The translations under genes were made by a program, and so were the position numbers. DNA of 64,000 nt. Origin: Demequina sp. NBRC 110051 (lineage in GTDB: Bacteria > Actinomycetota > Actinomycetes > Actinomycetales > Demequinaceae). Location: assembly GCF_002090055.1 (NCBI RefSeq), contig NZ_BBRH01000008.1, positions 1-64,000 of the forward strand, given 5' to 3'. The notes beneath the pieces are model-generated. The model saw only the letters and a program-made list of their open reading frames with translations. It ran no database searches and had not been told where the DNA came from. Positions 24,610 to 51,808 of the stretch are shown in pieces (within the stretch, counting starts at the first letter, position 1; every line of letters starts with the position of its first letter).

Positions 24610-24634
24610 GCGTGAAGGGAGCCTTTCGAGAGAG

Positions 24635-25417
24635 TCAGGCGGCGGGTGCGTCGAGGGTGAACCCGGGCGAGCCGGGGTCGGCCTCGAGGAGCGCCTTGGT
24701 GTACCAGTGCTGAGGTGACGAGAAGATCTGTGCGACCGGTCCCGCCTCCACGACGACGCCGCGGTAGAGGACAACGACGTCGTCGCTGACGTGCTGGACC
24801 ACCGCGAGGTTGTGCGAGATGAACATCATGGTGAGCCCAAGTGATTCGCGGATATCCGCCAAGAGTTCGAGCACCTGTGCCTGGACCGACACGTCGAGCG
24901 CGGAGGTGATCTCGTCCGCGATGACGAAGGAGGGATCGATGATGAGTCCACGGGCGATCGCGATGCGCTGGCGCTGGCCCCCGGAAAACTCGTGAGGATA
25001 GCGGTGCATCATCGACGCATCGAGCCCCACGCGCTCAAGCCAGTGCGCTATGCGGTCTTGGTAGGGGCGGACGCGCCCGCGACCGGGCTCAATGGCCTCC
25101 GCGAGAGTCTGGGCAATGGTCCGTCGCGGAGACAGGGAGGAGAACGGGTCCTGAGGGATCATCTGAATGCGTCGCCGGTATTGCGCGAGCTCTCGACGCG
25201 TCGCCAAGCGCACATCCAGGCCGTCGACCCAGATCTCACCGCCAGACGCGGGGACCACTCCGACCAGGGCCTTGGCAAGGGTGGACTTGCCAGAGCCCGA
25301 CTCGCCTACGACGCCCACGGTGCGGCCCGTGCCCAGGCTGACGGACACGTCCTGCAGTACGTGCGACGTGCCGAAGTGCACGTTGAGGTCGGTCACATTG
25401 ACCAGGGTGTCGCTCAT
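24635..25417 (-). CDS. oligopeptide-type ABC transporter ATP-binding protein (DppF/OppF-like)
   Basis: A 260-residue ATPase. Walker A is GESGSGKST (about 38-46), the Q-loop lies in QMIPQDPFSSLSPR, the signature is FSGGQRQRIAIARG, Walker B is FVIADEITSALD, and the H-loop is FISHNL. The SLSPR after the Q-loop is typical of OppF/DppF. ATG overlaps the stop of the preceding gene (ATGA). Confidence 0.93.
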   Translation of the reverse strand: MSDTLVNVTDLNVHFGTSHVLQDVSVSLGTGRTVGVVGESGSGKSTLAKALVGVVPASGGEIWVDGLDVRLATRRELAQYRRRIQMIPQDPFSSLSPRRTIAQTLAEAIEPGRGRVRPYQDRIAHWLERVGLDASMMHRYPHEFSGGQRQRIAIARGLIIDPSFVIADEITSALDVSVQAQVLELLADIRESLGLTMMFISHNLAVVQHVSDDVVVLYRGVVVEAGPVAQIFSSPQHWYTKALLEADPGSPGFTLDAPAA

Positions 25418-27123: not shown

Positions 27124-28162
27124 GGTCTTCTCCAAGGGTGCGGGGGTCGATGGCGCCCAGGACGATGTCGATGATCAGTGTCGTGATCAGCGAGATGGCG
27201 CCGATGACGAAGACCGCGGCCCGGATCACGGGATAGTCCTTGTCCTCGGCGATCGCGCGGATGACCGCGCTTCCGATGCCCGGCCACGCGAAGACCGTCT
27301 CGACGATGAGTGCGGATCCGAGCAAGGCGGTGAGGATGATGCCGGCCAACGTGAGCGACGTCGTCAAGACGTTGGGCAGGAGGTGCTTGGCGTAGCGGAC
27401 CATGGCCGGCAAGCGCCATCCGCGTGCGGAGCGCATGTAGTCCATCTCTTCGACTACCGCGGCTTCGCGCCGGACGATGCGCGCCATGCCTCCGATCGAT
27501 CCGATCGAGAGTGCGGCGATGGGCAGAATCGCCGACTGCCAGTACCCGTAGGCGAGGGTGTAGGCGGGCGGAAACCATGCAAGCCACAGGGCGAAGATGA
27601 CGACGAGGAAGGTCGCGAGGATGTACGGCGGGATCGACGTCAGGATGCTGGTCACGGTCGTGAACAGCGAACCGAGCCAGCGGTTGCGGTCGCCGCGGGT
27701 CGCGATCGCAACGGCGATGCCAAGCGAGACTCCGCCGACGAGGACGATCGCCACGGCGGCGAACGCGATGGTGATCGTGTACGGGGCCGCGGTTATGACG
27801 ATGTCGAGGGCTGGAACCCCGTAGCGGAACGACTCGCCGAAGTCGCCAGTGAAGACGCCGGTGACGTAATCCCACAACTGGACCAGCATGGGGTCGTCGA
27901 GCCCAAGTTCGTCGCGGACGGCCTCGACGGTGGTGGGGGAGGCGTCGGGGCCGGCGATGGCCTCTGCAGGGTCGCCCGGGATCAACTGGACGATGAAGAA
28001 CGTCATCAGCACCAGCATGACGAGGCTGATGACGAGGCCGGTGAACCGGCGGATCAGGAACGCGCGCCAGACGCGGGCGCGGCTGCCCGCCTGGTGCGCC
28101 GTCGGTGCGGGCGCGTCGCCCACATCGGTGGCAGTGAGGTCTTCCGACAGCGTGGTGCTCAT
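27116..28162 (-). CDS. ABC transporter permease, DppB-like
   Basis: A 348-residue permease with six predicted helices. FLIRRFTGLVISLVMLVLMTFFIVQLIPGDPAE near the start is the classic DppB/OppB N-terminus, and the coupling loop is YMRSARGWRLPAMVRYAKHLLPN. ATG at 28162 follows AAAGGAAC. It forms the heterodimer partner of the permease half of the following fused gene. Confidence 0.93.
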   Translation of the reverse strand: MSTTLSEDLTATDVGDAPAPTAHQAGSRARVWRAFLIRRFTGLVISLVMLVLMTFFIVQLIPGDPAEAIAGPDASPTTVEAVRDELGLDDPMLVQLWDYVTGVFTGDFGESFRYGVPALDIVITAAPYTITIAFAAVAIVLVGGVSLGIAVAIATRGDRNRWLGSLFTTVTSILTSIPPYILATFLVVIFALWLAWFPPAYTLAYGYWQSAILPIAALSIGSIGGMARIVRREAAVVEEMDYMRSARGWRLPAMVRYAKHLLPNVLTTSLTLAGIILTALLGSALIVETVFAWPGIGSAVIRAIAEDKDYPVIRAAVFVIGAISLITTLIIDIVLGAIDPRTLGEDRD

Positions 28163-28211
28163 ATGGTGTCGTTCCTTTCCCTGCAAGTCGATGTGGGCGA
28201 CGCGGAGGGCC

Positions 28212-29783
28212 TTAGCCCGCGACCCTCATGGTGGTGAGGTCCCAGGCGCCGGCGATGATCGGCGACGTGAAGCCGTCACGGGCCACGATGTAGTGGGTGT
28301 CGGAGATCAGCGGCGCGAAGGCCACGTCCTCGAGTACGGTCTCCTGAGCGTTGAGGAGGGCAGCGCAGGACTCGTCGGCGTCATCGGTGGTGGTCGCGAG
28401 CTCGAAGGCAGCGTCGGCCACATCGTTGGCCTTGCCGGTGATGTTCGAGCCGCCGTCCTCGCTCAGCGTGCCCATGACGCGCTCCAGCGAGATGGCAGGA
28501 ATACCCGAGGTGTTGCCGTCCGCGACCAGAGTGACGTCGTAGGAACCCTTCTCCTCGCGCTGGGCGGCGCGCCAGTCGGCGGGGTCGAGGGCGGTGACCT
28601 CGACGGTGGCGCCGGCTGCACGGAGGGACTCGGCCATGTAGTCGGTCGCGGGGTCCCAGTTCGACATGGTCAGGAGGCGAATGTTCTGGCCGTCGAGCAC
28701 CGATGCCGCGGCGGCGGGGTCGTACGCCTGCAGGAGCGACTCGTCGGTGTTCACGCACGGGGACTGGATGTACGTGATCGAGGCGAGGTCCGTGCCAAGG
28801 CCATCGAGCGCGGCGTCGTTGAAGCCGTCGCGCGAGATCGCCTGAGCCGTCGCGGCGCGCAGCTCGGGGGAGTCGACGTAGATCGAGCCGGAGCCGTCGG
28901 TCTGGTTGAACACCAGCGAGTAGGCGGAGGCGTTGGTCGTCGAGTACGAGAAGTCGTCGCTCTCCGTGAACTGCAGCGCGTTCGAGTCGTAGAAGCGCGT
29001 CACGTCGACGCCGCCGGACTGCAGGAGGTTCGCCGACGTGGTGGAGTCGGCCGCGACCGTGATGTTGATGGTCTGGGCGGGCGTGCCGTCAAGCTCGTAG
29101 GGCCACGCGGTGTAGTCGTCGCGAAGCTCGTACGACACCGAAACGCCAGCGTTGTTGTCAGCCAGCGTGTAGGGGCCGGACCAGGCGCCGTCGACGGTGC
29201 CAGCCGCGAGACCTTCAAGGTCAGCCAATCCCGCGGGGCAGATGATGCCGGTGTTCTCGAGCGTGAGTCCCGCGAACACGGAAGCGTAGGGCTCGGTGAG
29301 GCTGATCGACAGCGTGTCGCCATCCGCCGTGAAGGTCGGAGTGCCGGTCCCGAAGGCCTTCGCGGTCGCGGCCTGAGCTGCCGCGTCGTCGACGGTGGTG
29401 AGGTAGGTCAGCGAGTCAGCAGCAATCTGCGCGTCGATGACGGTGCCATCCGAGCAGACAGCATCGTTGCGAATCGTGAGGGTGTAGTCGGTTGCGGACG
29501 TCGCTTCCCAGTCAGTCGCGAGGCCGCCCACAAAGCCGTCGTCGCTTGCACGCAGCAGGGTGTCGAAGCCCAGACGGGCGGCGGACACGGTAGCCGAGCC
29601 CGAGGCAATCGCGGGGTCGAACTGCGTGGGCGAGGAGAACAGTTCGGTGTTGATGGTGGTGGCCGCTGCCGCGGTGGAGTCGGACGAGGGCGTCGAGTCG
29701 GTCTGTTCCGCGGGCGAGCACGCGGCCAGTCCCAGTGTCGCGGCGAGCGCGATCGACGCCAGGGTGGCGGTTTTCTTAGTCAT
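28212..29783 (-). CDS. ABC transporter substrate-binding lipoprotein (SBP family 5)
   Basis: A 523-residue extracytoplasmic solute receptor. The signal peptide ends in LGLAAC (Cys about residue 22), then comes a Ser/Thr/Ala linker and the family-5 peptide-binding fold, with DTLLRASDDGFVGGLATDWEAT near the start and the usual SYELRDDY segment. Family-5 receptors bind peptides, nickel complexes, opines and other small cationic compounds, so the name does not fix the ligand. It is the first gene of the leftward operon; three operator-like repeats lie 135-185 bases upstream. Confidence 0.92.
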   Translation of the reverse strand: MTKKTATLASIALAATLGLAACSPAEQTDSTPSSDSTAAAATTINTELFSSPTQFDPAIASGSATVSAARLGFDTLLRASDDGFVGGLATDWEATSATDYTLTIRNDAVCSDGTVIDAQIAADSLTYLTTVDDAAAQAATAKAFGTGTPTFTADGDTLSISLTEPYASVFAGLTLENTGIICPAGLADLEGLAAGTVDGAWSGPYTLADNNAGVSVSYELRDDYTAWPYELDGTPAQTINITVAADSTTSANLLQSGGVDVTRFYDSNALQFTESDDFSYSTTNASAYSLVFNQTDGSGSIYVDSPELRAATAQAISRDGFNDAALDGLGTDLASITYIQSPCVNTDESLLQAYDPAAAASVLDGQNIRLLTMSNWDPATDYMAESLRAAGATVEVTALDPADWRAAQREEKGSYDVTLVADGNTSGIPAISLERVMGTLSEDGGSNITGKANDVADAAFELATTTDDADESCAALLNAQETVLEDVAFAPLISDTHYIVARDGFTSPIIAGAWDLTTMRVAG

Positions 29784-29917: not shown

Positions 29918-29968
29918 GCATCCAACATCGTCCGATGTGTATCCAATCTAGTCATTTGTGTATCCGAC
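29918..29968. promoter_or_regulatory. three operator-like repeats phased at 21 bp
   Basis: GCATCCAAC (29918-29926), GTATCCAAT (29939-29947) and GTATCCGAC (29960-29968) are direct copies whose starts are exactly 21 bases apart, two turns of the helix. A separate palindrome ACATCGTCCGATGT lies between the first two. They lie upstream of the substrate-binding-protein gene and are proposed sites for the GntR protein encoded at 37606-38313. Confidence 0.6.
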
Positions 29969-30331
29969 GAGCATCGCTGATGTTACGAGCATGTAAATTC
30001 CGGCCGAGCTCGAGGCGTTCTCGTGCGGATGGTCGACGCCGACGTGCGGGAGTGCCGCCCTCGCGGCCGCGCGGGTCGATCCGCCGTGAGGTGCGAGTTG
30101 CGCGCCATCTGATATGTCAGGCCGCGGGCGCGAGGCGAGGTTCGTGCCGCGGTGCGCCAGGGGTGGCGGCGCGCCGGCAGGGTGAACGAGGCGCCCTCGG
30201 GGGATGCCCTCGTCTGGCGACAGGCCTCTCGCGGGCGACCCCGCCCACACCCCCAGGATCCCCCGACCGGTCGGTAGAAATTGACCACTTGCGTCCGAAT
30301 TTACCCGCCGGAAACACTGTTGTCGCTGTGC

Positions 30332-30360
30332 GGATACGTTGTCATGTAAATTGGATCCAA
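30332..30360. promoter_or_regulatory. operator-like pair upstream of urea carboxylase
   Basis: GGATAC (30332-30337) and the palindrome TTGGATCCAA (30351-30360, GGATCC starting at 30353) have their cores 21 bases apart. They lie about 110-140 bases before the urea carboxylase start and overlap a plausible promoter (TTGTCG at 30321). Confidence 0.55.
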
Positions 30361-30469
30361 AGTTGTTCGGATCGTGCCCAAGTTGTCCTGACGGGACGCG
30401 GTGGACAGCGAAGCAGCCCGGATCGCCGTTCGTGACGGCGGGGCATTCAACGGGAGGACCAGACGTACC

Positions 30470-33400
30470 GTGACTTCACCGCTTAGCCGCGTCCTCGTGG
30501 CCAACCGAGGCGAGATCGCTCGCCGGATCGTCCGCGCCGTCCACGACGCTGGCCTCACGGCCGTAGCCGTCTATACGTCGGCGGACGCGGCATCGGCGCA
30601 CGTGCGTGAGGCAGATGAAGCTGTCGCGCTCGCCGCCGACGGCGCGGGATACCTCGACGTCGACGAGCTCGTCGACGTCGCGTGCCAGGTGGGCGCGGAC
30701 GCGATTCACCCCGGGTACGGCTTCCTGTCCGAGAATCCGGCGTTTGCCGCGGCGGTAGAAGCTGCCGGGCTCGTCTTTGTCGGGCCGACCGCCGAGCAGA
30801 TCGAGCTCTTCGGCTCGAAGTCGCGTGCGCGTGAACTTGCGGACAGCGTCGGTGTCGCGAGCGTTCCCGGCACTGGAGTGCTGACGCGCGGCTCGGAGGC
30901 TGCCGCGGCCGCACAGGCGCTGGGCTACCCCGTGATGGTGAAGGCCGTCGCCGGAGGTGGAGGCATGGGTGTGCAGCGCTGCGACGAGCCCAGCACACTC
31001 GCCGACACGATCGATGCCGTCAGTTCGCTCTCCGCCCGCCTGTTCGGCAACGGTGACGTCTTTCTCGAAAAGGCCGTCATCGAGCCGCGCCACGTCGAAG
31101 TGCAGGTGGTGGGCGACGGTAAGGGCGGCGTCTCCGTGCTTGGGGACCGCGATTGCAGCTTGCAGCGCCGCCACCAGAAGGTGATGGAGGAGGCGCCCGC
31201 GCAAGCCCTCAGCGATGACCTGCGCGCCCGCCTGTGGGATGACGCGACGCGCATTGCGGCCGCCGTGCATTACCGCTCGGTGGGCACCGTGGAGTTCCTC
31301 GTCGCGGGCGAGGACTCCTACTTCCTTGAGGCGAACACGCGCCTGCAGGTCGAGCACCCCGTGACGGAACAGGTCACGAAGCTCGACCTCGTGGGCCTCA
31401 TGCTTGCGATCGCCGGTGGCGACCTGGTCCTGCCCACGGCGACCCAGGTGGGGCATGCGGTCGAGGCCCGCCTCTGCGCAGAGGACGTCTTCGCGGGCTC
31501 GCGTCCGTCATCCGGCCTCGTCACCCAGGTGGTGCTGCCAAGCGGCGATGGCATCCGCGTCGAGTCGGGCATTGAGTCTGGCGACGTCGTCACGACCGAC
31601 TACGACAGCCTGCTCGTCAAGGTCATCGCGACGGGCAAGGATCGCGACGAGGCCTTCTCGCGGCTGGCCGAGGGTCTCGACGCCATGCGCATCGACGGCA
31701 TCGAGACAAATCTGCCCTTGGTGCGTGCTCTCGCTCGCTCGGCCGCCGTGGTGGCCGCAGTGCCGACGACCGCGACGCTCGCGACGGTGGACGTGGCTGA
31801 CGAACGCGTCACGGTGGTCCGTGCCGGAATGTCGACCACGCTGCAGGACTGGCCGGGGCGAGTGGGGCATTGGCAGGTGGGCGTGCCGCCGTCGGGGCCG
31901 TTTGATGATCTGTCGATGCGCCGCGCCAACCGCCTGGTCGGAAACCCCGAGGGTGCGACCGCTTTTGAGGCGACCATGCTCGGGCCCGTCCTCGCGTTCT
32001 CGTATGCCACCACGGTGGCCGTGACGGGTGCGCCGGCGCCGGTCACGCTCGACGGCGAGGACGTCCCGCAGTGGCGCGCCCTTGAGGTGCGTCCAGGGCA
32101 ACGCCTGCAGGTCGGAACTCCCTCCGCGGGTGCTCGTACCTACATCGCGGTGGCCGGCGGGATCGACGTCCCCCAGTATTTGGGAAGCGCCTCGACCTTC
32201 GAGGCCGGTGGCTTTGGCGGTCACGGCGGACGTGCGCTGCGGCTGGGCGACGTGCTGCGTCCCGGCGCCGCGCGCACGCTCACTCCGGAGCCTTCGGCGG
32301 GCGAGGATGTTCCCGATTTCGGCCACACGTGGGAACTCCACGTTGCCGAAGGCCCGCAACCTGCCCCCGAGTACTTCACTCGAGAGGCGATCGACGAGCT
32401 CTATCAGGCATCGTGGCGGGTTCACGTTCACGCCGCACGCACCGGCGTCAGGCTCCTCGGGCCCAAGCCCACATGGTCGCGTCCGGATGGCGGCGAGGCG
32501 GGCCTTCACCCCTCGAACCTTCACGACAACCCGTATTCGGTGGGAGCCATCAACTTCACGGGTGACACCCCGTCCATTCTGGGACCCGATGGCCCGTCCC
32601 TTGGCGGTTTCGCGTGTCCGGTGACCGTGGTGTCGCCCGACCGATGGAAGCTTGGGCAGCTTCGTCCCGGTGACACCGTTCGGCTGGTGCCGGTCGACGA
32701 GACGACGCTCGACGGCGTGCGGGCCGCACGTGCCGCCGCGGTGGCGTTCGTCCCCTCCCACAGTGCGCGCGACGCGGACGAGGGAGTGCTGAGTCGGCGC
32801 GACGCCCACGCGGGCGGGCCCGAGGTCGTCTACCGGCGCGGTGGTGACGACAACCTGCTCGTCGAGTACGGCCCCATGGAATTGGACCTCGGTCTGCGGA
32901 TGCGCGTGCACGCGCTGATGGAGGCGTTGAGCGCACACGCTGGCCCTGGACTTATCGATGTCACCCCGGGAATCCGTTCGCTGCATCTTCACGTCGACGC
33001 CGATCGGCTGAGCGTCCGCACGCTTCATGGGCTTCTCGAGGAGTTGGAGGACACGCTGCCTCCCACCGAGGCCCTGAGCGTCCCGAGTCGTGAGGTGCGT
33101 CTGCCGATGTCGTGGGACGACCCCGTGGTACGCGAGGCCATCGCTCGCTACGAGGACCTCATCCGTGACGACGCCCCGTGGAACCCCGACAACATCGAGT
33201 TCATTCGCCGCATTAATGGCTTGGACAGCGTCGACGACGTGCGCCGCACCGTCTTCGACGCCTCGTACATGGTGTTGGGGCTCGGAGACGTCTACCTCGG
33301 CGCACCCGCGGCCGCGCCCATCGATCCGCGCCACCGCCTGGTCACCACGAAGTACAACCCGGCGCGCACCTGGACCGCCGCCGGCACCGTGGGCATCGGC

Positions 33401-34057
33401 GGCAGTTACATGTGCATCTACGGCATGGATAGCCCCGGCGGCTATCAGCTCGTGGGTCGCACCCTTCCCATCTGGGCGGGCGTCAGGCAATCGAACCCCA
33501 ATTTCGCGGCCAATGCGCCGTGGCTGTTGCGCTTTTTTGACCGCATCCGCTTTGAAGAGGTCGACGCAGACACGCTGGCCGAGCAGCGCCTCGCCTTCGC
33601 GGCAGGGCGCCTGGAGATCGAGGTCGAGGACGGGGAGTTTTCGCTCGCCGAGCACCGCGAGTTCCTCGACCGCGAGGCCTCATCGATCACCGAGTTTCGA
33701 CAGCGCCAGGCGGTGGCGTTCGCTGAGGAGCGCGCGGCCTGGGAGGCCGCAGGGGAGTTCTCGGCGACAGCCACCGAGCCCGAGCCGACCGCATCGGCCG
33801 TCGTCCCCGCTATCGACGTACCCGAGGGTGCCATCGTCTGCGAGGCGCCCATGGCCGGTTCGGTGTGGCGAGTGCCCGTCCAGCCCGGTCAGACCCTTTC
33901 AAGCGCCGACCCCGTCGTCATTCTCGAGGCCATGAAGATGGAGCTTCCCGTCGTGCCGGACGTGCACGCAACGGTCCTCGAGGTGCTCGTGAGCGCCGGT
34001 CAATCCGTCACCGCCGGACAGCCGGTGGCTGTCGTGCGGCCCACTTCGCAAGGTTAA
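30470..34057 (+). CDS. urea carboxylase
   Basis: A 1195-residue biotin enzyme converting urea, ATP and bicarbonate to allophanate. Domain order matches urea carboxylase: biotin carboxylase (about 1-445; VLVANRGEIARRI, the ATP loop KAVAGGGGMG, EANTRLQVEHPVTE), carboxyltransferase half AHS2 (about 455-740; RAGMSTTLQDWPGRVGHWQVG), half AHS1 (about 800-1010), and a C-terminal biotinyl domain with EAMKMEL (Lys about 1155). It is not fused to allophanate hydrolase, which is encoded 4.3 kb away. GTG 30470 is chosen by alignment to the family N-terminus; GGGAGGA lies rather far upstream. A guanidine carboxylase is conceivable, but the DUF1989 partners of that pathway are absent. Confidence 0.9.
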   Translation: MTSPLSRVLVANRGEIARRIVRAVHDAGLTAVAVYTSADAASAHVREADEAVALAADGAGYLDVDELVDVACQVGADAIHPGYGFLSENPAFAAAVEAAGLVFVGPTAEQIELFGSKSRARELADSVGVASVPGTGVLTRGSEAAAAAQALGYPVMVKAVAGGGGMGVQRCDEPSTLADTIDAVSSLSARLFGNGDVFLEKAVIEPRHVEVQVVGDGKGGVSVLGDRDCSLQRRHQKVMEEAPAQALSDDLRARLWDDATRIAAAVHYRSVGTVEFLVAGEDSYFLEANTRLQVEHPVTEQVTKLDLVGLMLAIAGGDLVLPTATQVGHAVEARLCAEDVFAGSRPSSGLVTQVVLPSGDGIRVESGIESGDVVTTDYDSLLVKVIATGKDRDEAFSRLAEGLDAMRIDGIETNLPLVRALARSAAVVAAVPTTATLATVDVADERVTVVRAGMSTTLQDWPGRVGHWQVGVPPSGPFDDLSMRRANRLVGNPEGATAFEATMLGPVLAFSYATTVAVTGAPAPVTLDGEDVPQWRALEVRPGQRLQVGTPSAGARTYIAVAGGIDVPQYLGSASTFEAGGFGGHGGRALRLGDVLRPGAARTLTPEPSAGEDVPDFGHTWELHVAEGPQPAPEYFTREAIDELYQASWRVHVHAARTGVRLLGPKPTWSRPDGGEAGLHPSNLHDNPYSVGAINFTGDTPSILGPDGPSLGGFACPVTVVSPDRWKLGQLRPGDTVRLVPVDETTLDGVRAARAAAVAFVPSHSARDADEGVLSRRDAHAGGPEVVYRRGGDDNLLVEYGPMELDLGLRMRVHALMEALSAHAGPGLIDVTPGIRSLHLHVDADRLSVRTLHGLLEELEDTLPPTEALSVPSREVRLPMSWDDPVVREAIARYEDLIRDDAPWNPDNIEFIRRINGLDSVDDVRRTVFDASYMVLGLGDVYLGAPAAAPIDPRHRLVTTKYNPARTWTAAGTVGIGGSYMCIYGMDSPGGYQLVGRTLPIWAGVRQSNPNFAANAPWLLRFFDRIRFEEVDADTLAEQRLAFAAGRLEIEVEDGEFSLAEHREFLDREASSITEFRQRQAVAFAEERAAWEAAGEFSATATEPEPTASAVVPAIDVPEGAIVCEAPMAGSVWRVPVQPGQTLSSADPVVILEAMKMELPVVPDVHATVLEVLVSAGQSVTAGQPVAVVRPTSQG

Positions 34058-34066
34058 GGAGAAACC

Positions 34067-34828
34067 ATGATCATCGATGCCTACAACACCACGCAGGACG
34101 TTCGCGGGCGCAGCGACTACCTCACCGGTGCGCGCCCGGGGGAGCCGGCGCCGCCGTATGTGCCGTTCGACGCTCAACGCATTCTTACGCGCATGGACGC
34201 TGCTGGCGTCGACAAGGCGATGGTGTGCTCTCTCGCGCAGCGCATCGAGAACGACTTCCTGGTCGAACTCGTCAAGCAGCACCCGGACCGCCTGTTCGGC
34301 TTCGGACAGGTCATGCCCCAGGACGATGACGCGACCGATCAGATCCGCAGGTTCGTCGACGCGGGGCTCGTGGGACTGAAGCTGCACCCCAGCATGCACG
34401 GCTACCACGTAGCCGACCACGGCCTGCTCGACCCCGTCTTCGAGGTGTGCGCCGAACTGGGAATCCCGGTCCTCATCAACGCGCTCGACGACGCCTTCTG
34501 TGCGCCGTTCGCCATCGAGGAGATCGCGAAGGACCACCCCACGGTGCCGACCATCATCGCCCACATGGGCGCCGTGTGGAACGTGCCGGAGGCCATCATC
34601 GTCGCCGAGCGCCGCGAGAACGTCTACCTCGAGACCTCTGCCACGCTGATGTCGGATATCAAGCGCGCGTACGCTCGACTCGGCGCGACGAAGATTCTCA
34701 TGGGTTCCGAATGGCCCGGATCCGACTTCGACCTGGAGCGGATGAAGGTTGCCAAGGCCGTCCCGGATGAGGCGGACCGCGCCCTCATCGAAGGAGGCAA
34801 CATGGCCCGGATCATGGGGTGGGTGTGA
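34067..34828 (+). CDS. amidohydrolase-2 family protein with altered metal site
   Basis: A 253-residue TIM-barrel protein of the amidohydrolase-2 (ACMSD/PDC-lactonase-like) group. The family core is visible as GLKLHPS (Lys105, His107), IIAHMG (His166), and NVYLETSAT. However the N-terminal HxH motif reads DAYNT (Tyr6, Thr8), the usual His before the mid-barrel reads INALDD, and the catalytic GSDxP reads GSEWP (Glu214). At least three classical metal or catalytic positions are therefore changed, so the protein may be metal-free or use another chemistry. AAGGAGAAACC precedes ATG; it lies nine bases after urea carboxylase. Confidence 0.82.
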   Translation: MIIDAYNTTQDVRGRSDYLTGARPGEPAPPYVPFDAQRILTRMDAAGVDKAMVCSLAQRIENDFLVELVKQHPDRLFGFGQVMPQDDDATDQIRRFVDAGLVGLKLHPSMHGYHVADHGLLDPVFEVCAELGIPVLINALDDAFCAPFAIEEIAKDHPTVPTIIAHMGAVWNVPEAIIVAERRENVYLETSATLMSDIKRAYARLGATKILMGSEWPGSDFDLERMKVAKAVPDEADRALIEGGNMARIMGWV

Positions 34829-35295
34829 GCACTCGCCGACCCACGTTCGCCGAGGCGATCGCGGCGATGGGCGAGGAGGATGCTGTACTCGCCCACGCCG
34901 CCCGCGAGCTCCTTGACGCGCGGTATGTCGCTGGGCGCCACGAGGTGGCGGCTGCGGCCCGCACCGACGACGGCGGCATCGTCACCGGCATCCATGTCGA
35001 GGCCTCCCAGGGTCGGGCGTCGATCTGCGCCGAGTCCGGCGTGGCATCGGGCGTCGTCGCGGCGGGTAGCAAGGCCGTCGCGCTCGTCGCCGTCCTGCGC
35101 AGGCGCGACGGCACCGTCCATCTGATCGAGCCCTGCGGCGTCTGCGCCGAACTGCTGGCCGATATGTGGCCGGACGCACGGGTATGGGCCGCCCGCGAGG
35201 CTACCCCCGAGCCCATTGCCGCTGCTGACCTGCTGCCCTTCCGCCACACGCGCATTGGCCGCCTTGACGCTTCTTCGAAGGAGAACCCCGCATGA
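34825..35295 (+). CDS. cytidine deaminase-like protein
   Basis: A 156-residue zinc deaminase of the cytidine/blasticidin-S-deaminase type. The zinc and catalytic motif is CAES (Cys68, Glu70) and the second zinc motif is PCGVC (Cys103, Cys106). The usual CAER is CAES and the PCGxCR arginine is Ala, so the substrate is probably not cytidine. GTG at 34825 overlaps the previous stop by four bases, and the next gene overlaps by four bases too, making a tightly coupled operon. A role in deaminating the island's substrate is inference. Confidence 0.82.
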   Translation: MSTRRPTFAEAIAAMGEEDAVLAHAARELLDARYVAGRHEVAAAARTDDGGIVTGIHVEASQGRASICAESGVASGVVAAGSKAVALVAVLRRRDGTVHLIEPCGVCAELLADMWPDARVWAAREATPEPIAAADLLPFRHTRIGRLDASSKENPA

Positions 35296-36101
35296 CCGTT
35301 TCGTTCCCGCCCACGGGCCTCGACATCCGCTCGCTCGCCGCCGAACTCGGTGGCACCGGCGTTCCTCTGCGCTGGGAGGAGCTTGACTGGCCCAGTGTGC
35401 CAAGCGTCGTCGAGCACACCCGCGCCGCAATCATTCCCATCGGCGCGGTGGAGCAGCACGGCCCCCACCTGCCCATGAACGTCGACACCGAGATCGACAC
35501 GGCCGTGACGGACTGCGTGTCCGCCGTCACGGGCATCCCCGTCATCCCGCCGGTGTCGATTGGCGTCTCCGCCTCGCACGGCGACTTCCCCGGCACCTTG
35601 ACGCTCAGCCCCGAGACGCTCATCGCGGTCATGCAGGACCTCACCGACTCGCTGTACCGCTCGGGTGTGCGCCAGTTCATCTTTATTTCGGGTCACATCT
35701 GGAACAACGGCGCGCTCGACGTCTCGATCGAGAAGCTCCGCACGCGGTACCCGGACGTGCGCGCGCGCTCCATCGGCTACGTCACGATGTACCCGGGACC
35801 GGAAGTGAACGGTCGCGTGAACTACGGCCGCGGCCTCATGCACGCCAACTTCTTCGAGACGTCGGTCATGCTTCATCTGCGGCCCGACCTGGTGCGCATG
35901 GACCGGGTCGTCTCGCACTCCGACCGAGATTCCTTCTGGGACTACCGCATGGATCAGGTGTCCGATTCCGGCGTCTGGGGCAACGAGGTCGGCCAGGCCA
36001 ACGCCGAGCACGGACGCGCAGAGTTCGACCGCTGCGTCGAGCGCACCGCACGCGCCCTCGCCGCGGCGATCAGGGAGCCGGAGCCCGAGCGCACCCGCTA
36101 A
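35292..36101 (+). CDS. creatininase family amidohydrolase
   Basis: A 269-residue protein with the creatininase-family metal motifs: GAVEQHGPHLPMNVDTE (about 49-65, with Glu, His and Asp ligands), HGDFPGTLTL (about 97-106), and ISGHIWNNG (about 133-141, His ligand). The family opens cyclic amides (creatinine, and others such as dehydro-inososes and formamidopyrimidines). In this operon it most likely opens a ring before urea release. It is the last gene of the rightward operon and is followed by a strong hairpin. Confidence 0.88.
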   Translation: MTVSFPPTGLDIRSLAAELGGTGVPLRWEELDWPSVPSVVEHTRAAIIPIGAVEQHGPHLPMNVDTEIDTAVTDCVSAVTGIPVIPPVSIGVSASHGDFPGTLTLSPETLIAVMQDLTDSLYRSGVRQFIFISGHIWNNGALDVSIEKLRTRYPDVRARSIGYVTMYPGPEVNGRVNYGRGLMHANFFETSVMLHLRPDLVRMDRVVSHSDRDSFWDYRMDQVSDSGVWGNEVGQANAEHGRAEFDRCVERTARALAAAIREPEPERTR

Positions 36102-36120
36102 ACCACCAACCGGCCCCGTC

Positions 36121-36155
36121 ACGCCGGCGACCGTCCACTGGGCGGTCGCCGGCGT
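36121..36155. terminator. perfect 13-bp hairpin between convergent genes
   Basis: ACGCCGGCGACCG (36121-36133) and its exact complement (36143-36155) flank a 9-base loop. It begins 20 bases after the creatininase stop and can serve both that operon and the convergent MFS gene. No T run. Confidence 0.8.
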
Positions 36156-36258
36156 CATGCTGTGCGTGGTCAAGCGCAAGGACGGCCGGTCGTGCGGAGC
36201 CGCAGGTCGAGAGCATGGGGGAGCCCGGTCCGCGTCCGTAGCCCGCCGCGACCCGGTC

Positions 36259-37437
36259 TTAGAGCGCAGCACGCACCTTCGCTGCTCGCGCGAGCGTGGG
36301 GATCACCGCGAGCTGAACGACGGCGCACAGAGTGATGGTGATGGAAGTCCCCAGGGTGCCGATGAGGAAGCCTCCCGCAAGGGCACCCAGCGACATTCCG
36401 GCCGAGGTGAAGGCGGAAAACCATCCGATGGCCGTCGCTCGGCGTGGCCCGTCGAGCGTGGTCGTGGCGAGCATGGTGAGTGAGGGGTACAGAGGGGCGT
36501 ATCCAAACCCCATGACCACCGCGGAGAGGCACGCGATGGCGAACGTGGGCGACCAGGCAAGGCCCACGAGGCCCGCGGCCACGACCACCAGGGACGCGCG
36601 CGCTGCACGCGCCGGGCCGAGGGAATCGGTGACTGCGCCGAGCACCACACGGGCGATGAGCACGGATGCGGCGAATACCAGGAGCACCGACGCTCCACCC
36701 ATGACGCCCGTGGCCGGTACCCCGGCGGACTCGAGGTGCGCGACCACAAAGGTGGTGATGACGCCCTGGGCTCCCCACGCCGCGACGGCGATTGCCGCCG
36801 GTACGCTCACGGCGCGAGCGATCGATACCGACGCGTCTGCCGTGGTGGCCACTGCCGGTGTGGCCGTCGGTGCTTCTCGGACCATCGCGGCCATGAGTAG
36901 GCTCGCCGCTTGCACCGCGAGCAGCAGGGCCCACGTGGAACGGTTTCCGATCCAGGCGTACGAGTTCTCGGCGAGGACCGGCCCGATGGCGAGACCGATC
37001 CAGACGCTCATCCCGTAGTACCCCAGCGCGCGGCCGCGGGTCGCCTCGGGAGACGTGGCGCTGACCCATGCCGTGGTCGCCACGGTGATCCCCGCGTTGC
37101 CCAGGCCGTAGGCGATCCGACTGAACGCGATACCGGGGATCGTGAACGACACGACGGCGATGGCGACGCCGGCGACGGCGATGGCCGCCGCGGCGAGGGT
37201 CACTCGGCGAGGGCCGAAGCGTCCTGCGAGATAGCCAAGGCCCGGCATGGTGGCCATGCCGACGAACCCTGCGATGGACACCAGTGATCCCGCCAAGGCG
37301 GTATCAAAGCCCAGCAGCTCTGTGACGCCGCGGTTGAGAAGGGGAGAGGTCCCTGACATGACGCCGTAGTTGGCGGTGGCGGCCGCGGTGATGAGCCAGA
37401 AGCCCCACGAGCGGAACCCAGCGGCTGTCAATGTCAC
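36259..37437 (-). CDS. MFS transporter of the catabolic island
   Basis: A 392-residue, twelve-helix transporter. The typical MFS loop 2-3 motif appears as GYLAGRFGPRRVTLAAAA (about 67-84). GTG at 37437 follows GGGAGAAACC. An operator-like pair lies 26 bases upstream, tying it to the GntR regulon. It provides a second, secondary uptake (or efflux) route next to the ABC transporter; the substrate is unknown. Confidence 0.85.
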   Translation of the reverse strand: MTLTAAGFRSWGFWLITAAATANYGVMSGTSPLLNRGVTELLGFDTALAGSLVSIAGFVGMATMPGLGYLAGRFGPRRVTLAAAAIAVAGVAIAVVSFTIPGIAFSRIAYGLGNAGITVATTAWVSATSPEATRGRALGYYGMSVWIGLAIGPVLAENSYAWIGNRSTWALLLAVQAASLLMAAMVREAPTATPAVATTADASVSIARAVSVPAAIAVAAWGAQGVITTFVVAHLESAGVPATGVMGGASVLLVFAASVLIARVVLGAVTDSLGPARAARASLVVVAAGLVGLAWSPTFAIACLSAVVMGFGYAPLYPSLTMLATTTLDGPRRATAIGWFSAFTSAGMSLGALAGGFLIGTLGTSITITLCAVVQLAVIPTLARAAKVRAAL

Positions 37438-37462
37438 GGTTTCTCCCGCATCGTCGGTTAGA

Positions 37463-37492
37463 TGTATCCGAAAGACATTGTATTGGATACAA
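37463..37492. promoter_or_regulatory. operator-like inverted pair upstream of the MFS gene
   Basis: TGTATCCGAA (37463-37472) and TTGGATACAA (37483-37492) form an inverted pair; the GTATCC and GGATAC cores start 21 bases apart. The same layout recurs upstream of allophanate hydrolase (40128-40154). Confidence 0.65.
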
Positions 37493-37605
37493 CTAGCGTG
37501 GATGACACGCGCGGGAGGTGGTGAGCGGTGACGGCAGGTCGAGCCTGCGCGGTGGGCAGCGAACTCGCCCCACCGGGTGACGATGGGGGAGGGAGCGCTA
37601 CGGGA

Positions 37606-38313
37606 TCAGCGTGTCATCAGGCTGGACGAGCGCCGCTCGTACCAGCGCGCCACCTGTTCCCCTGCGGCGATGACGTGGTCGCGCATCAGGCGGCCGGCCT
37701 CGTCGGCGTCGTGGGTCGCGAGTGCGTCGATGATGCGCGTGTGCTCGCGATGGTTTTCCTCGCGATGGCTCGCATTCTCGAGGAGTAGCAGGCCGGGCAC
37801 ATTCTTGGGAAGGGACGCTTGCACGCCGTCAAGAACGGACTGCAGGCGCGCGTTGTCGGCCGCTGCGAGGATGGTGGGGTGCAGTGCGTGCTCGTTGGCC
37901 TCGTCGAGGATTTGGCTGCGCGATGGCTCGGCGCCGTCTCGCGCCGCGGCGCGAGTGAGCTCGAACAGCTTGTCGTTGTGCTCGCGCATACGGTCGATAT
38001 CGTCGCTCGACAGACGCGTCGCCGCCCGCCGCGCGGCAAGCGCCTCGAGTTCGGCGCGTACCTCGTACGCCTCGCGCACTTCCCAGGGCGTGGGGATGCG
38101 CACCACGGCACCTCGGTGCGGGTAGATCTCGATGAGCCCGCCCGCCTGAAGCTGTCGGAGGGCTTCGCGCACGGGCGTGCGGCTCGTGCCAAAGCGCTCG
38201 GCGAGATCCGCCTGCCGTAGCGGCGTGCCAGCGGCAATTTCGCCGGACACGATGAGGTCGCGAATGTTCCGTGCGAGGTCGTCGACCAGGGCAGAGGTAT
38301 CGGTGGTGGGCAT
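37606..38313 (-). CDS. GntR-family regulator, FCD (FadR-like) subgroup
   Basis: A 235-residue regulator. The N-terminal winged helix (about 7-75) contains GTPLRQADLAERFGTSRTPVREALRQLQAGGLIEIYPHRGAVV, the classic GntR signature. The C-terminal half is an FCD ligand-binding helix bundle with the metal-type His residues near its end (EHTRIIDALATHDADEAGRLMRDHV). ATG 38313 follows GCGAGGAC; the frame is open further upstream. A palindromic operator lies 46 bases upstream, suggesting autoregulation. It sits between the MFS and allophanate hydrolase genes and is the natural regulator of the island. Confidence 0.88.
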   Translation of the reverse strand: MPTTDTSALVDDLARNIRDLIVSGEIAAGTPLRQADLAERFGTSRTPVREALRQLQAGGLIEIYPHRGAVVRIPTPWEVREAYEVRAELEALAARRAATRLSSDDIDRMREHNDKLFELTRAAARDGAEPSRSQILDEANEHALHPTILAAADNARLQSVLDGVQASLPKNVPGLLLLENASHREENHREHTRIIDALATHDADEAGRLMRDHVIAAGEQVARWYERRSSSLMTR

Positions 38314-38358
38314 GCGGCGTCCTCGCTCGTGCTGACGGGCGAGCGCAATCCCGCCCCC

Positions 38359-38370
38359 ATTGGATCCAAT
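38359..38370. promoter_or_regulatory. palindromic operator upstream of the GntR gene
   Basis: ATTGGATCCAAT is a perfect 12-bp palindrome and shares the GGATCC/GGATAC core with the other sites of the island. No second copy is found 21 bases away here. Confidence 0.55.
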
Positions 38371-38401
38371 AGGGGCGAGTCTAGGGCGTGTGGCGACCAT
38401 C

Positions 38402-40099
38402 TCAGCGCGACTGGCCGACGTAGGCGCGCCAACCGCCAAGATGCGTGATGTCCTCGCCTGCCATGTCTGTCGACACGAATCCCGCCACGACCGTGCCGTC
38501 GTGAAGGGTGAGGGGGCCAAGGGCGAGGGGTGCCTTCACGTCCGCCAGGAGGTCGCTCAGCGATGCCGCGGGCACGAGCCACTTCTCGCCCTCGAGGCCG
38601 TGAGCGACAGGCTCCAAGGCGGGGGCGACGCCCGGACGTGCCAGCGCGCCGGGTAGGGCGACCATGCGATAGCGCGGGGCGGTGACGACCGGACCGGCCA
38701 GGCGGGCGCCGCGTTCCGTCAGCTGGTAGTTGAGCGGCTGGCCTGCCAAGTGCGCGCCGAATACCACGACGGGAACGCCGTCGTCAGGTCGCAGCGACGG
38801 GGCCTCCTCTCCCGTGAGGCGAGCAGCGATATCGACCGCCACCTGGTCGCGAAAAGCTGGTGCGACGACCGTGACGCCGAATCCACCCGTGGGAGTGTCG
38901 GCCGCGGGTACCGCGACGCCGCACAGGTCGAGCAGGTTCATGAAGTTGGTGAAGGTGCCGAGGTGTGCATTGGCCGCGATCGGCTGGGCCTCGACCTCCT
39001 CGAACGTGGGGTGGGCGGGGGCTGTGGGGATCAGCAGGGCGTCGAGAGTCGCAAAAGTCTCGCGAGCGTCACGGCGCGCGCAGTCGAGGCGCTCGACGTC
39101 GTCGACGAAGCTCACGGCGGTGTGGACGCCGGCCGCGGCGGCGATCTGGCTCACCACGGGGTCCGCTCCTGAGGGGTGGTCCGCGAGGAACGTGCCGTAG
39201 GCGGCGGCACGTTCCGCGACCAAGGCGCCGCCATAGAGGAGGGTCGCGGTCTCAAGCATGCCGCTGATGTCAACGGTGACGAGCGTGGCGCCCTGCGCCT
39301 CAAGTCGCGCGGCCGCCGAGGCGAATGCCTCGGCGCGGTCGGAATCGAGCGACACGAGGTCCTCGGGGCGCGGGACACCCACCGTCGGGCGCGGGGGAGC
39401 GGCAAGCGGAGCGTCGGGGGTCCACCCTCGCGACAGCGTGTCGCGTTCGCTGGGCCCGATGATGGCCGCGGCCGCGCGGCTCGCCTCGGTGAGGGACCGC
39501 GCGAACACGGTGACGCAGTCGTACGAGCGCGAGGCGGGGACGACGCCCGATGCCGGCACCAGCCCGCGCGTGCACTTCAGTCCAACGATGCCGTTGAAGG
39601 CTGCGGGCACGCGTCCGCTGCCAGCGGTGTCGGTGCCAAGCGCGAGGTCGACCAGCCCGCGTGCGACCGCGACTGCGGAGCCGGACGATGACCCGCCCGA
39701 GATGCGGCCTGGATGGGTCGCGGACTCGGGCGCGCCAAAGGGGGAACGGGTGCCCACCAAGCCGGTGGCGAATTGGTCCATGTTGGTGGAGCCCATCACG
39801 ATCGCCCCCGCGGCACGGAGGCGGGCGACGGCCTCTGCATCATGCGCGGCGACGTCGCCGAACTCCGGGTGTGCCGCCGTCGTGCGCAGCCCCGCCACAT
39901 CGATGTTGCCCTTCACTGCGACGGTGAGGCCCGCCAGCGGGAGGTCATCGCCGGCGGCCAGGCGCCGATCAACCTCTGCCGCCTCCGCGAGCACCGTCTC
40001 CGCGGCGACGCGCTCAATCCACACGCTGGGAGTGGGGTCGGACTCGATGCGTGCGAGGGCGGCACGCACCCGGTGCACAAGGTTCGTTGCTGCGGACAA
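38402..40099 (-). CDS. atzF: allophanate hydrolase (AtzF-type)
   Basis: A 565-residue amidase-signature enzyme that hydrolyses allophanate to two ammonia and two CO2. The Ser-cisSer-Lys triad is visible as Lys63 (VAVKGN), a Ser in GGSSSGSA (137-139) and Ser161 (GTDTAGSGR). The C-terminal 120 residues form the AtzF_C domain (VFGAHLAGQPLNYQLTERGARL), which separates it from general amidases. The start is TTG at 40099, supported by GAAGGAGG ten bases upstream. With the separate urea carboxylase it completes the ATP-dependent urea pathway. Confidence 0.92.
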   Translation of the reverse strand: MSAATNLVHRVRAALARIESDPTPSVWIERVAAETVLAEAAEVDRRLAAGDDLPLAGLTVAVKGNIDVAGLRTTAAHPEFGDVAAHDAEAVARLRAAGAIVMGSTNMDQFATGLVGTRSPFGAPESATHPGRISGGSSSGSAVAVARGLVDLALGTDTAGSGRVPAAFNGIVGLKCTRGLVPASGVVPASRSYDCVTVFARSLTEASRAAAAIIGPSERDTLSRGWTPDAPLAAPPRPTVGVPRPEDLVSLDSDRAEAFASAAARLEAQGATLVTVDISGMLETATLLYGGALVAERAAAYGTFLADHPSGADPVVSQIAAAAGVHTAVSFVDDVERLDCARRDARETFATLDALLIPTAPAHPTFEEVEAQPIAANAHLGTFTNFMNLLDLCGVAVPAADTPTGGFGVTVVAPAFRDQVAVDIAARLTGEEAPSLRPDDGVPVVVFGAHLAGQPLNYQLTERGARLAGPVVTAPRYRMVALPGALARPGVAPALEPVAHGLEGEKWLVPAASLSDLLADVKAPLALGPLTLHDGTVVAGFVSTDMAGEDITHLGGWRAYVGQSR

Positions 40100-40127
40100 G
40101 TGCGGCCTCCTTCGGGTTTCGTCGAGT

Positions 40128-40154
40128 GTATCCGAAGAACATCAAATTGGATGC
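40128..40154. promoter_or_regulatory. operator-like inverted pair upstream of allophanate hydrolase
   Basis: GTATCC (40128-40133) and GGATGC (40149-40154) start 21 bases apart in inverted order, flanked by TGTATCCGAA and AATTGGATGCAA. On the leftward strand, TACACT in the right part could be the -10 box, so binding would block the promoter. Confidence 0.62.
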
Positions 40155-41232: not shown

Positions 41233-42699
41233 GTGCCGCACAATATCTCAGTGACCCACCCCGTTTTCGCAGGAATGAACCCTGCTGACGCCGAGCGCGA
41301 GATCGACGCTCTGATCTTTTCCCGCAGCCCCGAGGCCGACCACGCGGCCAAGCTCCGTCGCGTCGCGGCGGCCCTCAGTCGCTTGGGCGATCCTCACCGC
41401 GAGCTGCGCATCGTCCACGTCACCGGCACCAACGGCAAGACGTCGACCAGCCGCATGATCGAGTCGCTGCTGCGCGCCCACGGCCTCAGCACCGGCCTGT
41501 TCACGTCGCCGCACCTCACCACCTTCCGCGAGCGCATCCAGATCGACGGTCAGCCGCTCGCTCAGGAGGCCCTGGTGCGCCTGTGGGAGCGCGTCGCACC
41601 GGTGATTCACGCGGTGGACTCGGACTCGCGCGCGATCGGCGGGCCGCGCATGTCGTTCTTCGAGATCCTCACGGTCCTGGGTTTCACCGCGTACGCGGAT
41701 GCGGGAGTGGACGTCGCCGTCATCGAGGTCGGCATCGGCGGCTCGCGCGATGCGACCAACATCGGCGATGGAGAGGTCGCCGTCCTCACGCCGATGGCGG
41801 AGGACCACTCCAACTACTTCGTGGGTGGCATCACGGGCGTCGCCGCAGAGAAGTCCGGCATCATCAAGCCCGGCGCGACCGTGGTGTCCGCGATGCAGCC
41901 CGAGGTTGCGGAGGACATCATCCGCGCGGCGGCAGCGAGCGCGGGCGCCGTGATGCGGTGGGAGGGCGTGCACCATGAGGTGCTGGGCCGCGCGGCCGAC
42001 CCTGCCGGCCAGGTGGTGCGCATGCGCACCATGGGCGCCGTCTCCGAGACCCTCGTCGCTCTTCACGGCGACTTCCAGGCCCAGAACGCGATGATCGCGC
42101 TCGCGTCCACCGAGGCCTTCCTCGAGCTCTTCCACCGCGTCCCCGCGGCTCAGGCGCTTGACGCCGAGGCCGTCGCGCGCGGCTTTGCCGGCGCCACCTC
42201 GCCCGGCCGGCTCGAGGTCATCCACGATCAGCCCACCATCGTCGTGGACGCGGCGCACAACCCCCACGGCGTCGAGGCTCTCGCGTCGACCCTTCCGGAG
42301 GCATTCGGCTTCTCGACGACGGTCGGCGTGGTCGCAGTGCTCGCCGACAAGGATGGCGAGGGCATCCTCACAGGCCTGTCGCGCGTGGTCGACCATGTGG
42401 TCGTCACGCAGACCGACTCGCCGCGCGCGACCCCCGTCGCGAACCTCGCGGCGGCCGCTACCGACGTATGGGGCGCCGAGAACGTGACCGTCGCCCCCAC
42501 GGTCGCGGAGGCGATGGCGACGGCCACGGCCATGGCCCTCGACGCGGGTCCCGACGCCGGCGTCCTGGTCGCGGGCTCCATCACGCTCGTCGCCGCCGCG
42601 CGGCGCGTGGTGCAGCGCGAGCACGAGTCCCAGGTCAAGATCGTCCCGCCGCGACTTGCGGACGCGGGCGAGTCGTCGACGGAGACCATCCCGGCCTGA
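41233..42699 (+). CDS. FolC-like Mur-ligase family protein, divergent paralogue
   Basis: A protein of up to 488 residues related to folylpolyglutamate/dihydrofolate synthase. The ATP loop is VTGTNGKTST, followed by TGLFTSPHL and RERIQIDG as in FolC, and the second domain carries VVDAAHNPHG. The family's DHxxxLG motif is changed to EDHSNYFVG. It is followed at 72 bases by a second, more canonical folC. The start is uncertain: ATG 41233, GTG 41251 and ATG 41275 (after GCAGGA) are all possible. It may act as the ligase for one of the two folate reactions or for another substrate. Confidence 0.82.
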   Translation: MPHNISVTHPVFAGMNPADAEREIDALIFSRSPEADHAAKLRRVAAALSRLGDPHRELRIVHVTGTNGKTSTSRMIESLLRAHGLSTGLFTSPHLTTFRERIQIDGQPLAQEALVRLWERVAPVIHAVDSDSRAIGGPRMSFFEILTVLGFTAYADAGVDVAVIEVGIGGSRDATNIGDGEVAVLTPMAEDHSNYFVGGITGVAAEKSGIIKPGATVVSAMQPEVAEDIIRAAAASAGAVMRWEGVHHEVLGRAADPAGQVVRMRTMGAVSETLVALHGDFQAQNAMIALASTEAFLELFHRVPAAQALDAEAVARGFAGATSPGRLEVIHDQPTIVVDAAHNPHGVEALASTLPEAFGFSTTVGVVAVLADKDGEGILTGLSRVVDHVVVTQTDSPRATPVANLAAAATDVWGAENVTVAPTVAEAMATATAMALDAGPDAGVLVAGSITLVAAARRVVQREHESQVKIVPPRLADAGESSTETIPA

Positions 42700-42771: not shown

Positions 42772-44178
42772 ATGCCTGACGCCAACGACCTGGTCCTCGG
42801 CGGGCTCACCCCCGATGAGGCCGAGCGCGAGATCTACCAGCACATCCTGTCGCGCAGTCCCGAGCACGACTTTGAGCCCACGCTCGACCGCGTGCGCGAG
42901 GCCTGCGAGCTCCTGGGCGACCCCCAGAGTTCCTTCAAGGTGATCCACCTCACGGGCACCAACGGCAAGACCTCGACGGCTCGCATGGCGGAGTCGCTGG
43001 TGCGCGAGCACGGCCTGCGCACCGGCCTGTTCACGTCGCCGCACCTCACGAGCGTGCGCGAGCGCATCCAGATCGACGGCGAGCCCATCGCACAGGACGA
43101 GTTCATCCGATTGTGGAGCGAGGTCGCCCCGATCATCCACCTGGTCGACGCGCGCTCGGTCGAGGTCGGCGGACCGCGCATGTCGTTCTTCGAGGTGCTC
43201 GTGGTGCTCGCCTACGCGGCCTTCGCAGACGCCCCGGTGGACGTCGCCGTGATCGAGGTCGGCATGGGCGGCGTGTGGGACGCGACCAACGTGGCCGATG
43301 GCGACGTATCCGTCATCGCCCCGATCTCCATGGACCACGCGCAGTGGCTGGGTGACACGCTCCACGCGATCGCGACGGAGAAGGCCGGCATCATCAAGGA
43401 CGGCGCCGCCACCGTGATCTCTCACCAGAGCGAGTCCGTGGTGCCCGTCCTCCTCGAGGCGGTCGCGGCCAATAACGCGCGGGCCCGCTGGGAGGGGGAC
43501 GACCTCGAGGTCGTGGACCGCCAGCCTGGCGTGGGCGGCCAGCTCGTCACGCTGCGCACCAGCGCCGCGACGTACGAGGACATCTTTGTGCCGCTGTACG
43601 GCGAGCACCAGGCCCACAACGCGCTGCTCGCGCTCGCGGCCGTCGAGGCCTTGCTCGCCGACGGGGGAGAGCCACAGTCGCTTGCGGCCGATGCCGTGGA
43701 GGCCGGGTTTGGTGCCGTCACCTCTCCCGGGCGCCTGGAGGCGGTGCGCACCTCGCCCATGGTCTTGGTCGACGCCGCGCACAACCCCGCGGGCGTGGAC
43801 GCTCTCGTGGAGGCGCTAGAGGAGTCCTTCACGTTCGAGACCCTCGTGGGCGTCGTGGGTGTGCTTCAGGACAAGGACGCCGAGGGCATCCTCGCGGGCC
43901 TCGAGCCCGTGCTTGACCACGTCGTCATCACGTCCTCGCAGTCGTCGCGGGCCATCCCGGCCGACGACCTCGCGGCCATCGCGATCCCGCTCTTCGGCGA
44001 GGACCGCGTCACCGTGGCAGGCACGTTGCCCAACGCGATCGACGAGGCGGTCCAGCGCGCCGAGCGTGACCATGACATGGGTGCGGGTGTCATCGCCGTC
44101 GGGTCGATTACGGTGGTGGCGGAGACGCGCATTCTCATGCGCGCCGACGAGCGCAAGGGAACGGGGCAGGCGCGATGA
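42772..44178 (+). CDS. folC: folylpolyglutamate synthase / dihydrofolate synthase
   Basis: A 468-residue Mur-ligase enzyme that adds glutamate to dihydropteroate and folates. Motifs are LTGTNGKTSTARM (ATP loop, about 62-74), TGLFTSPHL, RERIQIDG, the canonical MDHAQWLGDTLHAIATEKAGI, and VLVDAAHNPAG. The next gene is DUF4233, overlapping by four bases, and then ndk downstream, which is the usual actinobacterial folC context, so this copy is the probable orthologue of the standard FolC. Confidence 0.93.
   Translation: MPDANDLVLGGLTPDEAEREIYQHILSRSPEHDFEPTLDRVREACELLGDPQSSFKVIHLTGTNGKTSTARMAESLVREHGLRTGLFTSPHLTSVRERIQIDGEPIAQDEFIRLWSEVAPIIHLVDARSVEVGGPRMSFFEVLVVLAYAAFADAPVDVAVIEVGMGGVWDATNVADGDVSVIAPISMDHAQWLGDTLHAIATEKAGIIKDGAATVISHQSESVVPVLLEAVAANNARARWEGDDLEVVDRQPGVGGQLVTLRTSAATYEDIFVPLYGEHQAHNALLALAAVEALLADGGEPQSLAADAVEAGFGAVTSPGRLEAVRTSPMVLVDAAHNPAGVDALVEALEESFTFETLVGVVGVLQDKDAEGILAGLEPVLDHVVITSSQSSRAIPADDLAAIAIPLFGEDRVTVAGTLPNAIDEAVQRAERDHDMGAGVIAVGSITVVAETRILMRADERKGTGQAR
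43686..43699 (-). repeat. CCACGGCATCGGCC word, copy 7
   Basis: Exact copy inside the second folC gene (Ala-Asp-Ala-Val). Confidence 0.9.
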
Positions 44179-51779: not shown

Positions 51780-51808
51780 TTAACCGATGCGAAACATGCC
51801 GGTGTTTC
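51780..51808. promoter_or_regulatory. GlnR-like binding site upstream of amtB
   Basis: TTAAC, six bases, then GAAAC (51780-51795) fits the actinobacterial GlnR pattern gTnAC-n6-GaAAC at nine of ten defined places or nearly so. The same GAAAC faces a GTTTC (51804-51808) in inverted order. The site lies 67-95 bases before the amtB start, fitting nitrogen-limitation control. No AmtR-type box is seen. Confidence 0.55.

Follow-up and report, generated by a model that had tools for sequence, protein, structure and literature searches.

We propose that an island for the catabolism of a nitrogen-rich compound, found in a 64,000-nucleotide stretch of the Demequina sp. NBRC 110051 genome (hereafter the window, to which all coordinates refer), is controlled by its own FCD-type GntR protein, which would repress the whole island and its own gene through a set of predicted operators, with GlnR as a second input. 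From the sequence, we put the probability of this reading at about 80%. Read at each unit, the sequence shows that GTATCC and GGATAC are two ways of reading one underlying palindrome, TTGKATMCAA. Every unit of the island has palindromic sites of this kind upstream, in pairs spaced 21 bp apart throughout, except for a single site at gntR.

The ABC operon (minus strand, 29783 down to 23314) and the uca operon (plus strand, 30470-36101) are divergent. The ABC operon begins with the gene of an SBP_bac_5 substrate-binding protein (sbp; 28212-29783, minus strand), followed by the genes of a permease, a permease-ATPase fusion, an ATPase and a COG1228-like amidohydrolase (23314-28186, minus strand). 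It is preceded by a triple predicted operator (29918-29965, minus strand) with cores at 29918, 29939 and 29960, in steps of 21 bp, and this triple is kept in place in Demequina flava, D. sediminicola and a fourth genome of the genus, G002. The uca operon contains the urea carboxylase gene (30470-34057, plus strand) and the genes of an amidohydrolase-2, a cytidine-deaminase-like protein and a creatininase family protein (34067-36101, plus strand), with a paired operator upstream (30332-30358, plus strand; GGATAC and GGATCC, 21 bp apart). A second pair, GTATCC and GGATAC at the same distance (37464-37490, minus strand), precedes the MFS transporter gene (36259-37437, minus strand), and a third, GTATCC and GGATGC (40128-40154, minus strand), precedes the allophanate hydrolase gene (38402-40099, minus strand), with a pair in the matching position in three other Demequina. 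The gntR gene itself (37606-38313, minus strand) has upstream the perfect palindrome ATTGGATCCAAT (38359-38370, minus strand), close to the likely transcription start. Two cores are poor palindromes, namely the upstream one at uca (30332) and the outermost one at the ABC operon (29918).

A preliminary description of this DNA had placed GTATCC/GGATAC cores upstream of the ABC, urea carboxylase, MFS, gntR and allophanate hydrolase genes, and all of its core coordinates are real on re-reading. Seven of the nine paired cores are exact GKATMC, but GCATCC at 29918 and GGATGC at 40149 carry one mismatch each. The palindrome at 38359, described as single, is indeed without a partner at +/-21 bp; in D. 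sediminicola, the gntR site has retained a degenerate partner 21 bp away. The gene units were also named correctly, but the uca operon extends to the amidohydrolase-2, cytidine-deaminase-like and creatininase genes, and the last gene of the ABC operon encodes an amidohydrolase.

We scanned the genome with degenerate patterns, using reversed patterns as controls, and found that exact 21-bp pairs are confined to the island rather than frequent in unrelated promoters: GKATMC-N15-GKATMC occurs exactly three times in the whole 2.75-Mb genome, all three in the island (3/3), compared with 0 for the reversed control. The same is true of the full palindrome TTGKATMCAA (exactly three in the genome, all in the island). 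In 3000 dinucleotide shuffles, the mean number of exact pairs was 0.003 (maximum 1), against 3 observed in the island. The bare hexamer GGATAC/GTATCC, with 19 copies in the window for 10.6 expected, is only about twofold enriched, a point in favour of chance or low-complexity resemblance. Because the hexamer is not rare, the earlier statement that the pattern occurs nowhere else in the window holds for the 21-bp pair and the full palindrome only. For these, chance is refuted by their confinement to the island, by shuffles far below the observed number and by conservation across several families, and we give it practically no weight.

Allowing one mismatch, we found 28 pairs genome-wide compared with 5 in the control, the 29918 and 40128 pairs among them. 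Single palindromes with one mismatch are at background (16 genome-wide, 5 of them in the island, versus 18 in the control), and none of the 11 outside the island coincides with a one-mismatch pair. Since such single palindromes are background, we claim no regulon target outside the island for this genome.

The preliminary description had also pointed to the upstream regions of relatives as a test. We compared them and found sites before gntR, within about 210 bp, in 16 of 16 orthologue loci; at 13 loci, the GntR orthologues are 46-84% identical. The relatives of the island are those of D. flava, D. sediminicola, G002, Cellulosimicrobium sp. CUA-896 and Cellulomonas sp. B6. We compared 44 Demequina genomes. 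The 4 with a gntR orthologue have 2-4 exact pairs in the island, this genome having three, whereas 0-2 pairs occur in each of the 40 without an orthologue, most of them with a GC-rich stretch between the cores. Furthermore, of 396 genomes in the order, an identical set of 12 has the orthologues of gntR and of the amidohydrolase-2 gene, a coincidence with a chance of 4e-23 if the genomes were independent, which they are not.

In other families, the surroundings of the sites differ. G211 and G107 are large genomes in which the amidohydrolase-2 operon and gntR lie on separate contigs, and yet an exact 21-bp pair is found near the start of the operon's SBP gene, while in G237 five exact pairs lie within 20 kb around the amidohydrolase-2 gene. 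Around gntR in these genomes, pairs are found near copper amine oxidase, aldehyde dehydrogenase, EgtE-like and Rieske genes. The pair thus stands beside differing enzyme genes in different families, indicating that the sites go with the regulator rather than with a particular enzyme. At L116 (2890), L118 (3928) and L117 (3791-17173), amidohydrolase-2, deaminase-like and creatininase-like genes are far from gntR or unlinked to it, and exact 21-bp pairs are present. Such unlinked pathway genes with pairs may belong to a scattered regulon in these families.

The proposal that the FCD-type GntR protein reads the shared operator is well supported by the linkage of sites to gntR across genomes, by the unlinked operons and by the fit to the FadR-subfamily consensus, TKGT/ACMA (PMC4494728). 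The island operator TTGKATMCAA agrees with these arms, and the replacement of GT by GG is common at one position. We considered whether another transcription factor reads the sites, with GntR as a mere neighbour, given that clusters elsewhere hold further regulators (in L117, for example, a MarR-family protein). The GntR orthologue alone was found to accompany the sites at all loci, however, the region upstream of gntR always bears a site, unlinked operons carry sites in genomes that keep GntR, and the motif is of the FadR-subfamily type, so that another reader appears very improbable. The FCD-type GntR protein is most likely the binder of the predicted operators.

This protein has 235 amino acids (Pfam GntR 7.7e-17, FCD 1.2e-18), with an N-terminal GntR winged helix (PF00392, 61.2 bits for a cut-off of 27) and a C-terminal FCD effector domain (PF07729, 68.2 bits for a cut-off of 24.3). 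Among the orthologues, the DNA-binding domain is 55-94% identical compared with 45-81% for the effector domain. Three histidines of the FCD domain are invariant in 13 of 13 orthologues, as in metal-binding FCD domains, and we infer from this likeness that they may have a metal role. The orthologues also share an invariant C-terminal stretch around WYE, located after the FCD domain. This stretch is a candidate surface for contact between dimers.

At the 13 GntR-orthologue loci, we counted 30 exact-core pairs spaced 21 bp apart and at most one pair at any other spacing between 7 and 70 bp (shuffle mean 0.10), bearing in mind that pair counts across related genomes are not independent. In the summed site matrix, the inner arms, those towards the partner site, show stronger conservation than the outer ones. 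Cooperative binding of dimers on one face of the DNA, suggested in the preliminary description, is a plausible reading of this arrangement. Single sites are kept in Cellulomonas B6 and no exact pair is found there, so that the pair is not strictly needed.

We assigned the -10 boxes by eye and found that the predicted operators lie on the likely promoters. The likely -10 box of the ABC operon, TAGATT (29945-29950, minus strand), overlaps the left arm of the middle operator, and TAGATTGGATAC at this position is conserved in 6 of 6 genomes. That of the uca operon, TAAATT (30347-30352, plus strand), abuts the downstream core and reads TAGATT in relatives. TACAAT (37477-37482, minus strand), the likely -10 box of the MFS gene, lies between the two cores, and at gntR the operator is downstream of the likely box TAGACT (38378-38383, minus strand). 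Overlapping or abutting of cores and likely -10 boxes at sbp, uca and mfs is seen in relatives as well. Measured from the start of the -10 hexamer, the core starts about 6 bp later at sbp and uca, 7 bp later at atzF and 15-16 bp later at gntR; at mfs, one core starts 8 bp before and one 13 bp after it.

These positions bear on whether the 21-bp spacing merely reflects promoter geometry, that is, dimers that independently cover the -10 and -35 regions, which are about two helical turns apart. At sbp and uca, one core does abut the likely -10 box with its partner over the -35 region, as such geometry would have it. The position relative to the likely -10 box differs from promoter to promoter, however, yet the distance is 21 bp in 30 pairs, and at the ABC promoter one more copy follows after a further 21 bp. 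A spacing that stays constant while the position varies favours a constraint set by the protein, and we regard promoter geometry as unlikely to explain it.

FadR-type proteins act as activators at some promoters. With this precedent, the GntR protein could be imagined to activate the island instead of repressing it. We consider activation quite improbable, given that the sites at gntR, mfs, sbp and uca are downstream of the likely -10 box or overlap it, in positions where a bound protein would block polymerase, and that the activator position at sbp and uca is already taken by a GlnR box. It is from the overlap of the operators with the likely -10 boxes that we infer repression.

Neither this overlap nor the GlnR boxes figured in the preliminary description. 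The GlnR a-b box has the consensus t/gTnAC-n6-GnAAC (PMC3087709, PMC10704036), and the window has six boxes of this type, one each at sbp, uca and amtB among them. In the ABC promoter, TTTACATGCTCGTAAC (29982-29997, minus strand) lies upstream, 38 bp from the centre of the operator pair; in the uca promoter, TTTACCCGCCGGAAAC (30300-30315, plus strand) lies upstream at 37 bp, a location that it keeps in three other Demequina species. The box upstream of amtB (box at 51780-51795, plus strand; gene at 51887-53098) serves as the reference GlnR box for this genome. Of 36 GlnR-like boxes in 15 sequences, 12 lie within 110 bp of an operator, compared with 0.96 expected, and 11 of these 12 are upstream of the operator centre at a distance of 37-39 bp and point at the gene. 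GlnR itself is encoded in this genome (contig C11 at about 182.5 kb, locus L077), and the best PDB matches of the protein are 8hih and 8hig over its full length and 4o1h and 4o1i for the receiver domain. Elsewhere in the genome (L084, contig C14 at about 108.8 kb), we noted a protein resembling NnaR, a nitrate regulator, identified by eye only, in which an OmpR-type DNA-binding domain closes a uroporphyrinogen-synthase-like protein.

We hypothesize that the two regulators act together as follows. One GntR dimer would bind each TTGKATMCAA palindrome, so that two, or at the ABC promoter three, dimers would sit exactly two helical turns apart on the same face of the DNA, one over the -10 region and the next over the -35 region or around the start site. 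Under nitrogen scarcity, GlnR would activate the two promoters of greatest importance, those of the uptake ABC operon and of the urea carboxylase-amidohydrolase-deaminase-creatininase operon, from a box about 50 bp before the likely start; of the two operators, the upstream one would cover the -35 region and the downstream one the -10 region. A metabolite of the pathway would bind the FCD effector domain and take GntR off the DNA, turning the island on, and expression would accordingly need both nitrogen limitation and release of GntR by the metabolite. Binding, cooperativity, repression, activation by GlnR and the existence of an inducer are all predicted here from sequence.

Several parts of this scheme have known counterparts. 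As in the local repressors of the FadR (FCD) subfamily (PMC4494728), a GntR winged helix is joined to an FCD domain, the palindrome is of the AT-flanked TKGT/ACMA type and autoregulation is predicted; the comparative study of this subfamily also described double sites with constant spacing (PMC4494728). The island differs from these repressors in having a double or triple site at nearly every target, at a fixed 21 bp across several families, and in lacking a divergon around the regulator gene. E. coli NanR, another case in which FCD-type GntR dimers are proposed to lie side by side on repeated sites, binds the (GGTATA)3 operator, a close direct repeat of half-sites, and needs a 32-residue N-terminal extension for cooperativity (PMC8012715). 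In contrast, the island operators are full palindromes 21 bp apart, and the island GntR lacks a long N-terminal extension, its winged helix starting from about residue 11. Without an extension of the NanR type, another surface would be needed for contact between dimers. Likewise, a GlnR-type a-b box upstream of nitrogen-scavenging operons is a feature of the actinomycete GlnR regulon, whereas here the box is coupled at a fixed distance to the operators of a local GntR repressor.

We searched the literature for the palindrome, for a 21-bp cooperative GntR operator and for a creatininase, urea carboxylase and GntR cluster, and in this search, which covered few subscription papers, no description of the system was found. 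The regulon is new, and its kind is already known. More tentatively, and at somewhat less than even odds, this may be a GntR subfamily new to description: a dimer of dimers on a rigid 21-bp module that would have moved as a unit onto unrelated nitrogen-catabolic operons of several actinobacterial families, locked behind a GlnR box at several promoters as a two-input cassette (nitrogen-starved and substrate-present), with cooperativity through surfaces other than a NanR-like extension. In any case, sequence alone has defined an uncharacterised regulator and its target set, and the spacing rule is so strict that the regulon can be recognised in other genomes, unlinked genes included. The island offers a clean natural system for two questions: by what means an FCD-type GntR protein that has no NanR-like extension imposes a spacing of two turns, and how global control by nitrogen is joined to a local substrate repressor.

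The genes marked by the sites, encoding the amidohydrolase-2, deaminase-like and creatininase-like proteins, point to a catabolic pathway that probably yields urea. They are the best-conserved pathway genes, with the amidohydrolase-2 82-93% identical across families, and they form a catabolic core. For the urea amidolyase pathway, both the urea carboxylase (TIGR02712, 1530 bits for a cut-off of 1304) and the allophanate hydrolase (TIGR02713, 592 bits for a cut-off of 511) score above curated cut-offs. At the position equivalent to K. lactis 1330, Asp marks carboxylases of the guanidine type and Asn those of the urea type (PMC11410670); the island carboxylase has Asn and is of the urea type. 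In addition, no Rfam match to a guanidine riboswitch was found in 22000-46000, and no carboxyguanidine deiminase gene is among the island genes. The Asn residue and the lack of a guanidine riboswitch indicate that the last pathway steps handle urea, and we reject a guanidine carboxylase pathway on the Asn signature together with the absence of the partner genes. In M. smegmatis under nitrogen limitation, urea amidolyase, allophanate hydrolase and a creatininase-family gene rise (PMC4617892).

Neither urea carboxylase nor allophanate hydrolase is found within the 20 kb examined in Cellulosimicrobium sp. CUA-896 (L015) and Cellulomonas sp. B6 (L016), where the other island genes are kept with operator sites in front. 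These two genes look like an add-on to the island. The cluster partners in other families, among them copper amine oxidase, a Rieske protein, aldehyde dehydrogenase, a glutamine-synthetase-like and a luciferase-like protein, suggest amine or heterocycle breakdown, though without a fit to any single known pathway. Finally, two genes of the folC type (folylpolyglutamate synthase family) lie in tandem at 41233-42699 and 42772-44178, and in the relatives only one such gene is seen beside the island.
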